A DNA stretch of 64,000 nt from Polynucleobacter necessarius (GTDB lineage: Bacteria > Pseudomonadota > Gammaproteobacteria > Burkholderiales > Burkholderiaceae): positions 364,284 through 428,283 of the forward strand of contig NZ_LT606949.1 of the NCBI RefSeq assembly GCF_900095215.1. The letters run 5' to 3'. Of this stretch, positions 3,189-63,335 are shown in pieces (positions within the stretch are counted from its first letter, which is position 1; each line of letters starts with the position of its first letter). The notes beneath the pieces are model-generated. The model was not told the DNA's origin and searched no databases. It worked only from the letters and a program-made list of their open reading frames with translations. A program made the translations under genes and the position numbers.

Positions 3189-3455
3189 TTATTTGCCGCC
3201 TTCACATTTCTTGATTGAAGCGGCTTTAGCAGCGCCATACAGTGGCTTGCCATCTTTGCTTCATGCCTTGGCCTCGTAATCATTGGATTTAGCATCACCC
3301 ATACATTTTTTAAGCGATGCATCCTTTGCGGCGCCATATAACGGTTTACCGTCTTTGCTGCCTGCCTTTGCTTCGCATGCGGCTTGATCGGCAAAAGCAT
3401 AAGTTGGAAGTGCGAAACTGAGTGCAATGCTTAATGCAGCAATCATTTTCTTCAT
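3189..3455 (-). pseudogene. Small exported two-repeat protein (PsiF-like), interrupted by TGA
   Basis: The frame encodes a signal peptide (MKKMIAALSIALSFALPTYAFA) followed by two tandem copies of a Cys-containing repeat. Copy 1 has ACEAKAGSKDGKPLYGAAK ending in LKKCMG, and copy 2 has SKDGKPLYGAAK ending in IKKCEGGK. Between them an in-frame TGA (3263-3261) replaces what copy 1 suggests was a Gly codon, so translation should stop after about 64 residues. The frame continues without other damage to TAA at 3189. ATG 3455 is chosen because AAGGAGA precedes it ideally. The repeat resembles the PsiF family loosely; function is unknown. The first repeat could still be made and exported. Confidence 0.7.
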
Positions 3456-3525
3456 GCTCACTCTCCTTGGTGGATGGATTTATTTCGCAGGCTAACGCGC
3501 ACAACGGTAAAGCTATAGCTAAATA

Positions 3526-4344
3526 TTACGTCTGTTTCACAATCATGTTCTGAGATGCCATTGGGGCTGGGAAGCCAGCAGCAAGGGCGTCGCTCATGAC
3601 GCGGTTGCTCTCAAAATATACCTGCCAGTAATCATTATTACTGCAATAGGGGCGTACAGCCAACACGGGTCCGACTACGTTGCACTCCAAAATATTCACC
3701 TCAACAGCTGGATCTTGTAGGACATTTGGGATGGCGGCAATCTTTTCACGCAATAAGGCCATTGCAGCATTTTGATCAGCCGCACTAGAGAGTTGGCACT
3801 TGAGATCAACACGACGATATGGGCTGTGACTAAAGTTCTGAATCGTGTCTCCCAATATTTTGGTATTACCAATCATGGTTGCAATATTGTCTGGGGTGTA
3901 AATGATGGAAGAGAAAAGACCAATTTCTCGAACAGTTCCAGTGACGCCACCAGCCGTGATGAAATCACCCACTTTAAATGGACGCAATACGATTACAAAT
4001 ACACCTGCCGCAAAGTTGGAAAGTAGGCCGGCCCAGGCTGCGCCTATGGCAACACCGGCAGTAGCAATCAATGCAGCAAAGCTGGTTGTTTGAATGCCGA
4101 AATAACCGAGAATGCCAACCACCAAGAGAATATTCAGGGTGACGGAAACCACTGAACCTACATAGCGAAGAATGGTCGGGTCCAACTTTTGTTGTTCTAC
4201 GCCTTTGCGAATCACGCTGAGCGCAACTCCAATCAACCAACGGCCAATTACCCAAAGGGCGATAGCGGCCAAAATCTTTAAGCCAATATCCGTTGCAGAT
4301 GTGACAAAAATTTCTTGTATGCGGTTTAAATCAATCTCTTTCAT
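3526..4344 (-). CDS. Small-conductance mechanosensitive channel (MscS family)
   Basis: This is an inner-membrane channel of the MscS family that releases solutes during hypo-osmotic shock. The 272-residue product has three N-terminal membrane segments. It also has the hallmark pore helix rich in Ala and Gly (AGVAIGAAWAGLLSNFAAG, about residues 85-105) followed by RPFKVGDFI, which opens the beta domain. The C-terminal alpha/beta domain runs to QNMIVKQT. The ATG at 4344 is preferred to a TTG eight codons upstream because GAAAG lies before it and the longer form has no binding site. It is short and single-domain like E. coli MscS. Confidence 0.88.
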   Translation of the reverse strand: MKEIDLNRIQEIFVTSATDIGLKILAAIALWVIGRWLIGVALSVIRKGVEQQKLDPTILRYVGSVVSVTLNILLVVGILGYFGIQTTSFAALIATAGVAIGAAWAGLLSNFAAGVFVIVLRPFKVGDFITAGGVTGTVREIGLFSSIIYTPDNIATMIGNTKILGDTIQNFSHSPYRRVDLKCQLSSAADQNAAMALLREKIAAIPNVLQDPAVEVNILECNVVGPVLAVRPYCSNNDYWQVYFESNRVMSDALAAGFPAPMASQNMIVKQT

Positions 4345-4528
4345 TGCGACTTTCGTAAATAAATTCAATAAAAATGCTTATAAAGCTTAAAAATGATTAT
4401 TTCTGATTATGCAGATACTCGGTATTAGCCTAAGGGTTAATAGATATTAACTCTGCAGAGAATTATGATTCTCATACATATGACCCTAAAACTTTTGGGG
4501 GCATCATGAAACATTCGAATCTCGTCTG

Positions 4529-61203: not shown

Positions 61204-61236
61204 GCCCGACGAGCTGCCAGACTGCTCCACCCCGCG
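61160..61236 (-). tRNA. Initiator tRNA-fMet (CAT)
   Basis: The minus strand folds as a full tRNA of 77 bases with encoded CCA. The 5' end CGCGGGG pairs with CCCCGCA leaving a C1-A72 mismatch. The D stem is GAGC/GCTC, and the anticodon stem carries three G-C pairs (GGG/CCC) around CTCATAA. The T loop is TTCAAAT. The first-pair mismatch and GGG/CCC stem identify the initiator. The anticodon CAT is at 61202-61200. No second copy is in this window. Confidence 0.96.
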
Positions 61237-61392
61237 TCTGAAGCTGAGATTTTACCATTTTTTTTGGGGTCTCTGTCGAGGTCTCCCTCTAAATAAAGCA
61301 TAAATAAGCGGTTTTTGAGGGGAAATTCTCGATTTCATGACCGCCGTTAAGGAGTAACATATTGCCACGCAACATCACGCTAGGGTTTATTA

Positions 61393-63335
61393 ATGTCAGT
61401 TAGCAATCCTGAGTTTTCAGAGTCATCCTTATTAAGCCCCGTGGAGATTTCTCGAGAGGGGCATCCTCATACGAAAGGGGCCTATATATCTTTGATGTTT
61501 GCCGAAATCGGCGTTGTATTCGGTGATATTGGTACAAGCCCCCTTTACGCTCTTAAGGAATGCTTCAGCCCTGAACATGGCATACCGTTTTCACCAGAGG
61601 CTGTCTATGGTGTGATCTCAATGATTTTTTTGGCTTTTGCGGTTGTCGTTTCATTGAAGTATGTTTTAGTTGTGATGCGCACAAATAATCATGGTGAGGG
61701 CGGCATTTTGGCGCTTATGGCGCTAGCGCTAAGAACGGCACCTGCAAATTCAAAGCGCTCACCACTCATTATCATGGCTGGTGTATTCGGCGCTTGCATG
61801 TTCTATGGCGATGCAATTATTACCCCGGCAATTTCAGTGCTGTCAGCAGTTGAAGGTCTGGAGGTGATTTCCCCTGATCTGACTCGATATGTCATAGCAA
61901 GCACTATTTTTATTCTAGTCCTCCTCTTTTTTATTCAGAAGACTGGCACTGATTGGGTTGGGAAGCTTTTTGGACTTGTCATGATGCTTTGGTTTATTGC
62001 TATCGGGTTGATGGGCGTACATCAGGTTATTCAGAACCCAGCAATTTTTGCCGCGATTAACCCTTTATTCGCCATTCAATTCTTAATAGAGCACTCATTG
62101 CAAGGGTTTATTGTTTTGGGTGCAGTATTTCTAGTGTTGACTGGTGCTGAGGCTTTATATGCTGATATGGGCCATTTTGGACTTACGCCAATTCGGATGG
62201 GTTGGTTTTTATTGTGATGCCTTGTTTGCTCTTAAATGACTTTGGTCAGGGCTCAATGTTTTTGGGTAACCCAGAGACCATTACAAACCCATTTTTTCTA
62301 ATGGTGCCAGAAGGTCTTGTATTTCCTTTGGTGCTTTTGGCAACGTCTGCAACCGTCATTGCATCGCAAGCTGTTATATCAGGCGCTTTTTCAATGACCA
62401 GTCCGGCAATTTTCCTGGGCTTTGTACCGCGCATGCAGATTCGCAATACATCCGATAGGGAAATTGGCCAGATCTATGTGCCGCTTGTGAACTGGGTGTT
62501 GTTGACTCTAGTTATCGCCGTTGTTGTAGCATTTAAAAAGTCTGAAAACTTAGCTGCTGCATATGGTATTGCAGTTACCACCACGATGATTATCACTACC
62601 TTTTTAGCTGCAATTGTGATGCGGGTAGTATGGCGTTGGAATACCTTATTGGTAATGCTGGTAATTAGCTCTTTCTTGGCGGTGGACATGGCATTCTTAA
62701 CTGCTAACCTATTGAAGATCATGGAGGGCGGTTGGTTTCCTTTATTGTTGGGGTCGGCTTGCTTTTTGCTATTGATGACTTGGTATCAAGGTCGCAAGAT
62801 TCTTCGCCAAAATGCCATGAATAATGGTATTGAGCTCAAGCGTTTTATCGAGGCGTTAATGCAGCATCCTCCTCATCGCGTTGAGGGAGCTGCTATCTTC
62901 CTTACTACGCACGTAGATTATTTACCCGTTTCTTTTTTGCATAACTTAAAGCACAACCATGTGCTTCATGAGCAAGTATTTTTCTTAAAGGTGAGTATTT
63001 GGGATGTGCCTTACGTAAAGGATAGTGAGCGCATTACCTTGTGCGCTCTTGGCAATGGAATTTATGTTGTACGTGCTGTGTATGGATTTAATGAAACTCC
63101 AGATATGGGTCACATTATTGAGTTAATTGAAAAGGCATCTGATCTCAAGTTCGATCTGATGAATACTTCATTTTTCCTGTCACGAGATACGATTGTTTCA
63201 ACTGAAATACCTGGTATGGCTATCTGGCGTGAGAAATTGTTTTGCTGGATGTATCAAAATACTGATCGTCAGTCTGACTTCTTCAAAATTCCAACGAACC
63301 CCTTGGTTGAGTTGGACGCAAAGGTCGAGATTTGA
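61393..63335 (+). pseudogene. kup: Kup-type potassium uptake protein, one frameshift
   Basis: Kup is a proton-coupled K+ importer with twelve membrane helices. The first frame (61393-62217) carries [56 protein letters not shown] and [17 protein letters not shown]. At the T5 run 62206-62210 one T is missing; adding it gives [16 protein letters not shown] and an open frame to 63335, including [21 protein letters not shown] and the soluble C-terminal domain. No other damage is seen, so the lesion is either very recent or a base-calling error. AGGGT precedes the ATG. Confidence 0.85.

Follow-up and report, generated by a model that had tools for sequence, protein, structure and literature searches.

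Early gene decay in a 64,000-nucleotide stretch of a Polynucleobacter genome

The DNA described here, called the window, is the whole stretch of 64,000 nucleotides at positions 364284–428283 of a single-contig Polynucleobacter genome of 1,703,354 bases (labelled G000, or W). The window is very probably part of a genome in early, widespread gene decay, which likely results from obligate life inside a eukaryotic cell. In a strict test of conserved genes, seven of the 45 window genes that qualify are broken (moeA, moaE, aceA, phaZ, cysD, comEC, and kup). The same test found no broken copy in 244 gene tests on six reference mates or in 212 on five further mates of the genus (together 0/456, with 27–45 genes tested per genome). 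A sequence-only reading of the window had described an erosion of accessory genes beside intact housekeeping genes, and this pattern is confirmed by the counts. The alignment to orthologues that it had suggested as a check found all tested copies of these 45 genes free of lesions in the 11 intact-looking mates. The assignment to Polynucleobacter is supported by an 867-residue protein, which matches Polynucleobacter sp. at 98 and 96%.

Damaged genes in the window

The syntenic regions of eight genus mates were taken before any lesion test was performed. Two of them, G017 and G023, turned out to be decaying, and the other six became the references. A survey of 145 genus genomes with a completeness of at least 90% (the window genome and 144 further ones) supplied five more decaying genomes, as well as five further intact-looking mates as controls. 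The surveyed genes were aceA, cysD, moeA, phaZ, comEC, and kup. For the 11 mates, "free-living" and "intact-looking" are labels assigned in this analysis. Gene order is kept between the window and the mates, and the mean nucleotide identity is 74–82%. Lesions were called by frameshift-tolerant protein-to-DNA alignment to intact orthologues, together with direct reading of the frames. Genes were named by NCBIfam and Pfam scans of the relatives' proteins or of window pieces, with the exception of a 113-residue open reading frame (ORF), the type of which is presumed.

When compared with the syntenic DNA of the mates, 14 window genes are damaged, 12 of them firmly and two mildly, the latter being clipped at one end. 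The sequence-only reading had counted at least 14 damaged genes, a figure that is reached only if the two mild cases, moaE and a TauE/SafE-type transporter gene, are included. At least 10 of the 14 contain a stop or a deletion (a small conserved ORF, an autotransporter, moeA, moaE, aceA, phaZ, the 113-residue ORF, cysD, an amidohydrolase, and comEC). Among the broken genes covered by the initial alignment, all but comEC keep 80–95% identity to intact orthologues.

Among the strictly tested genes, which lie on the plus strand unless stated otherwise, moeA (molybdopterin molybdotransferase, 20785–21807) has three frameshifts and a 70-residue deletion, and aceA (isocitrate lyase, 27092–28387) is stopped at 27311–27313, codon 74 of 432. 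Two TAG stops and two frameshifts interrupt phaZ (polyhydroxyalkanoate depolymerase, 30760–32034, minus strand), and cysD (a sulfate adenylyltransferase subunit, 44105–45025, minus strand) has a stop at 44345–44347, codon 227 of 307. The DNA-uptake channel gene comEC (58808–59579) contains a frameshift, a deletion of about 368 codons and a stop at 59442–59444, and its 3′ end is gone. The potassium uptake gene kup (61393–63332) is broken by one frameshift near 62207. In the mild case of moaE (22097–22549), the stop at 22496–22498 (codon 134 of 151) removes the last 18 residues and falls beyond the Pfam MoaE domain. The other mild case, the TauE/SafE-type gene (45795–46587, minus strand), has a frameshift inside codons 4–7, so that the shift is confined to the first seven codons and a 241-codon ORF is left from 46517. 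This gene is one of the 45 yet passes the test, because the shift is too near the start to count.

The remaining damaged genes, all firm, are outside the 45. The small conserved ORF at 3192–3476 (minus strand) encodes 88–97 amino acids in four relatives, belongs to no Pfam family, and has an internal stop at 3261–3263. The autotransporter at 4529–6569 (plus strand; 697–749 amino acids in three relatives, with PF03797 in the one relative scanned) is spread over three frames and has a 32-residue deletion near 6160. The 113-residue ORF (42351–42692, plus strand), which we take to be of the carboxymuconolactone-decarboxylase type, has an in-frame stop at codon 33; it is open in G002 and G023 and was not found in the other 16 regions compared. 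In cysK (cysteine synthase A, 48409–49223, plus strand), there is a frameshift near 49127 and the 3′ end is gone. The adjacent amidohydrolase gene (PF07969, 49183–50409, plus strand) has lost its 5′ end through a deletion that joins it to cysK. The frameshifted 5′ part of cysK and the 3′ part of the amidohydrolase gene together form a single open frame of 666 codons (48409–50409). This fused frame is probably an accident, which an automatic gene finder would call as a protein. Last, the remains of a large serine recombinase gene (59582–61033, plus strand) consist of three pieces that are 61–82% identical to an open 570-residue copy in G019.

The strict test was limited to genes of at least 120 amino acids with at least three consistent orthologues among the six references. 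Both controls lean to the intact side: the references help to define the gene set, and the choice of the five further mates favoured genomes in which the surveyed genes are open or absent. When the six surveyed genes are excluded, the counts are 0/212 for the references, 0/183 for the further mates, 1/39 for the window, 3/37 for G017, and 4/39 for G023. For the window's own broken genes, the genus survey is the fairer control.

The claim that core genes are intact stands for the 38 of the 45 tested genes that are clean and for several genes beside the damage. It has to be qualified in that the selectivity concerns single genes and not entire pathways: next to the broken cysD, both cysN and cysH are open. 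The small ORFs at 142–1624, presumably ribosomal, are free of lesions and align to relatives at 91–98%. A block of seven ORFs at 35747–41136 (plus strand) is intact as well; from gene order and size, we assume that it is an Isc-type iron-sulfur cluster. The replicative helicase gene dnaB (1649–3088, plus strand) is whole. It was a candidate for a broken gene, which was rejected when the apparent gap proved to be an insert in four reference copies. In G024, G002, G018, and G023 (for example at locus L013:9518-12013), residue 238 of DnaB is followed by this insert, which is about 352 residues long; the window, G014, and G017 lack it. The insert is intein-like, with a LAGLIDADG domain in the single copy that was scanned.

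Several other flags were dropped. Flags in groups 52 (DUF1841) and 126 and two N-terminal flags in group 106 were also raised in intact-looking genomes; group 52 reflects a start-site difference, and group 126 is an antisense ORF. Group 121 is cut by the window end. Group 165, which is outside the window set, was flagged in reference G018 at 41% identity.

Decay beyond the window and its explanation

Elsewhere in the genome, 60 kb were tested as a second region, and 11 of its 43 genes were called broken, compared with 0–2 of 43–45 in five mates, where all flags fall within the first 25 codons. One of the calls, gene 10, is probably a wrong alignment (34% identity), so that the count may be 10/43. 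The second region is at least as eroded as the window, which indicates that the decay is not special to the window. The description of an early stage of genome reduction is therefore upheld, given this second region, the identity still kept by the broken genes, and the lack of lesions in the 11 mates.

The partners of the broken window genes fail jointly with them. Outside the window, cysM, which encodes a second cysteine synthase, has a stop after 220 residues; with cysK broken as well, the cysK search found no intact O-acetylserine sulfhydrylase in the genome. Malate synthase G, the partner of isocitrate lyase, is in pieces in three frames, and phaC and phaB, the partners of phaZ, are broken. 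For the molybdopterin oxidoreductase domain there are two matches, an open NuoG and a formate-dehydrogenase-like gene in pieces that fails together with moeA. NuoG is not known to require molybdenum. Also broken are methylmalonyl-CoA mutase, its GTPase MeaB, and a ketothiolase. The state of cysK and cysM suggests cysteine auxotrophy, and that of aceA and malate synthase G suggests a loss of the glyoxylate shunt.

How much each loss says depends on how general the gene is in the genus. A match to aceA is present in 140 of the 145 genomes, and in 134 it has no internal stop (two are cut by contig ends); no match was found in G059, G081, G003, G155, and G156. It is broken in six genomes (G000, G017, G064, G065, G066, and G079). 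Among the matches listed, moeA is damaged in G000, G017, G064, G066, and G079; phaZ has a match in at least 143 genomes and is broken in G000, G064, and G066 and truncated in G079; the kup-type gene has a match in at least 144; and comEC has a match in at least 132 and is broken in G000, G064, G066, G067, and G079. In G042, a 2.1-Mb genome with no other decay seen, moeA is split into two pieces (C7:32635-33883). Because aceA, moeA, phaZ, and kup are nearly universal, their loss is informative, and for these genes the view that the broken functions are those a host-dwelling cell can spare is sustained. It does not extend to cysD, for which only 69 of the 145 genomes have a match, in three of them only to a distant copy with 47–51% identity. 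It is also weakened for comEC, which, among the matches listed, is interrupted or without a match in some genomes that show no other decay.

The branch leading to the window shows extra amino acid change. For aceA, the nonsynonymous distance (dN) is 0.0305 on the window branch, compared with 0.0030 between two intact genomes, an approximately tenfold excess. Over 25–26 intact genes, the ratio of nonsynonymous to synonymous change (omega) is 0.038–0.043 on the window branch, compared with 0.023–0.030 in three neighbours, although the synonymous distances (dS) behind these values are near saturation (0.9–1.8). The raised omega is as expected for weaker selection. The dN of comEC is inflated by alignment past 59579 and was not used, nor were pooled and rank figures containing it.

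These observations would be explained if the products were no longer needed, so that their genes collect stops, frameshifts (often in single-base runs), and deletions. Relaxed purifying selection combined with strong drift, as in a small population, may act on the unneeded genes, and core genes would still be protected. The most likely cause is obligate intracellular life of the kind known from P. necessarius, a symbiont of Euplotes, in which case cysteine or reduced sulfur, as well as carbon, would come from the host.

A number of points weigh against this explanation. The genes cysN and cysH are still open despite the broken cysD, and with a match in fewer than half of the genomes the loss of cysD itself says little on host life. 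P. necessarius kept most amino acid biosynthesis (PMC11253213). The dN/dS check suggested by the sequence-only reading gave a divided result: omega is raised on the window branch, within the limits of dS noted above, and aceA has its excess, but the broken moeA has none (0.064 compared with 0.079), and some intact genes have dN ratios of 2.6–4.4. Among the other decaying genomes, the branch dN of G065, G066, and G067 is below that of the comparison genome (ratios 0.89–0.95), and in G017 dN is raised but omega is not. Finally, several frameshifts (in moeA, phaZ, comEC, kup, and the TauE-type gene) lie in or near A, T, or C runs and individually could be miscalls.

This last point, together with the mostly frameshifted G064, is what favours the idea that most lesions are artefacts of error-prone sequencing or assembly. 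We consider it very unlikely, since indel miscalling cannot explain a pattern in which at least 10 of the 14 genes contain a stop or a deletion, and counting those lesions alone still leaves 6 of 45 window genes broken. Random error should also hit core genes, yet 38 of the 45 conserved genes are clean, and a miscalled stop could not produce the excess dN of aceA. The earlier argument that mixed lesions including deletions exceed base-calling error is thereby borne out. That the stops are read through or recoded and the genes still work is less probable still, to the point of being hardly credible. It would suit aceA and cysD, which have one stop each, no frameshift of their own, and 90–95% identity to orthologues. 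However, the lesions use all three stop codons, the tested core genes are without any, recoding cannot rescue deletions or multiple frameshifts, and outside the decaying genomes no listed match to aceA or cysD has an internal stop.

Adaptive streamlining of a free-living planktonic strain, in which the losses are favoured and no host is involved, is unlikely, although it is the least improbable of the three. In its favour, some members of the genus that show no decay have genomes of almost the same size (1.71–1.84 Mb), and 76 of the 145 surveyed genomes have no match to cysD. The small genomes nevertheless have no broken genes among those tested: 0/45 in both G091 (1.77 Mb) and G097 (1.82 Mb), 0/32 in G047 (1.84 Mb), and 0/27 in G016 (1.71 Mb). 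In the window, many pseudogenes are still fresh, and omega is raised in the intact genes. The scarcity of pseudogenes in conserved genes that would be expected of a streamlined free-living Polynucleobacter is seen in the 11 mates and not in the window. Decay following host restriction thus remains the favoured explanation.

Recurrence of losses and the comEC–kup site

The genus has taxonomy entries for endosymbionts, namely Polynucleobacter sp. es-EL-1, es-GGE-1, es-MAR-1, es-MAR-3, and es-MAR-4. In our comparison, seven genomes besides that of the window are decaying (G017, G023, G064, G065, G066, G067, and G079), each with 4–12 broken genes of 40–45 testable window genes. A tree of 27 genes and 19 genomes shows that the eight decaying genomes are polyphyletic, with G017, G064, and G065 each having an intact-looking sister. 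The scattered placement and the mostly different lesion positions indicate several origins. The window groups with G024, G004, and G090 with a support of only 55%; the genomes of these neighbours measure 1.90–2.02 Mb, compared with the 1,703,354 bases of the window genome. A TAG stop in aceA is found at codon 91 in both G064 and G079 and at codon 92 in G066, despite their separate places in the tree.

Broken in the eight decaying genomes are aceA (6/8), moeA, moaE, comEC, and a PhoH/PIN gene (5/8 each), and phaZ and cysH (4/8 each); comEC is without a match in a sixth genome. The cysK locus was found in five of the decaying genomes (W, G017, G023, G064, and G067), and the gene is broken in each of these, in G064 only near its end. 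It is intact in the four other genomes compared, and the locus was not found in several regions, some of them intact-looking. In G064 (C1:1455001-1595000), part of the apparent decay may be assembly error, and the recurrence counts were repeated without this genome.

All seven strictly broken window genes are also broken elsewhere (P 0.0017), and there are 78 shared pairs compared with 35 expected. These raw tests are partly circular, because five of the eight genomes were picked through broken surveyed genes, which were surveyed because the window breaks them. When the six surveyed genes are left out, 33 pairs are shared, a number that none of 20,000 draws reached, compared with 12.3 expected, and without G064 the result is 18 compared with 7.2 (P 0.0025); the null model behind both comparisons allows essential genes to break. 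For genes broken at least once, with uniform and length-weighted draws respectively, P is 0.003 and 0.024 with the surveyed genes included, 0.006 and 0.037 with them excluded and G064 retained, and 0.14 and 0.33 with both excluded. Among the three genomes recognised without the survey (the window, G017, and G023), three pairs are shared compared with 2.2, a difference that is not significant (P 0.36).

Most of the repeated breakage of the same genes is accounted for by differences in whether a gene can break in the first place. It is a tentative and rather doubtful proposition that gene loss in host-bound Polynucleobacter can nearly be predicted, with separate lineages breaking the same short list (cysK, aceA, the molybdopterin genes, and comEC) that intact species keep. 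If true, a predictable list would mark the supplies that hosts commonly make and would argue against a purely contingent, lineage-specific loss. The abstract of Boscaro 2017 reportedly calls the loss lineage-specific.

The stretch from comEC to tRNA-Met (61160–61236, minus strand) and kup, at 58800–61400 of the window, varies strongly in length among relatives, with about 36 kb in G016, which suggests a hotspot for islands. In G019, the open serine recombinase gene lies at the right end of a stretch of about 17 kb between comEC and kup. Most likely, judging from this arrangement, the window genome once had an island that separated comEC from tRNA-Met and kup, and a deletion then removed both the cargo of the island and the 3′ end of comEC. 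The recombinase tail would have been left behind by this deletion and would then have decayed.

A different interruption of comEC was observed at one site (codons ~256–260) in four mates with no other decay seen: G124, G115, G102, and G151 (loci L145, L146, L147, and L157; contig ends L158/L159 and L164/L165). The inserts measure 15.1, 11.7, 5.2, and 8.5 kb, respectively. In G115, G102, and G151, a recombinase-like gene is situated next to the left insert end, and two of these were confirmed as serine recombinases by Pfam; two scanned inserts contain a PriCT_2/AAA_25 protein. The inserts look like a family of elements that may switch off DNA uptake upon entry. Disruption of comEC by mobile elements is known in other systems (PMC4774983; PMC12955456).

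Relation to known systems

The erosion is genuine and has a good explanation, and erosion of this type has been published for Polynucleobacter before. No publication on precisely this gene set turned up in a literature search that covered its sources in part. P. necessarius has about 18% pseudogenization with 269 pseudogenes (PMC5632650), and symbiotic Polynucleobacter genomes are 1.7–1.8 Mb in size, have lost sulfate assimilation, and have several independent origins, with erosion mainly by drift (PMC11253213). The share of broken genes found here, based on two regions only, is close to the published value (7/45 in the window, 11/43 called in the second region). Since decaying genomes here have close intact counterparts with the same gene order, and their lesions can still be read, one can ask whether loss after host entry follows a fixed order. 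Separate lineages are hit in overlapping genes, which makes predictability testable genome-wide.

P. necessarius and the related Euplotes endosymbionts share with the window genome the genus, a reduced genome (1.70 Mb here), several independent origins, about one in six window genes broken, and damage to sulfate assimilation; they differ in that host life is here deduced from the genes. Undecayed and presumably free-living Polynucleobacter have the genus, the gene order, and overlapping genome sizes (1.71–2.17 Mb) in common with it, and differ in that none of the 45 tested genes was found broken in any of the 11 genomes of this kind. As is generally known of recently host-restricted bacteria, there are many young pseudogenes, losses in biosynthesis and competence, and intact information genes; in contrast to such bacteria, the base composition here has shifted little, with a guanine-plus-cytosine content of 45–48% in the window.

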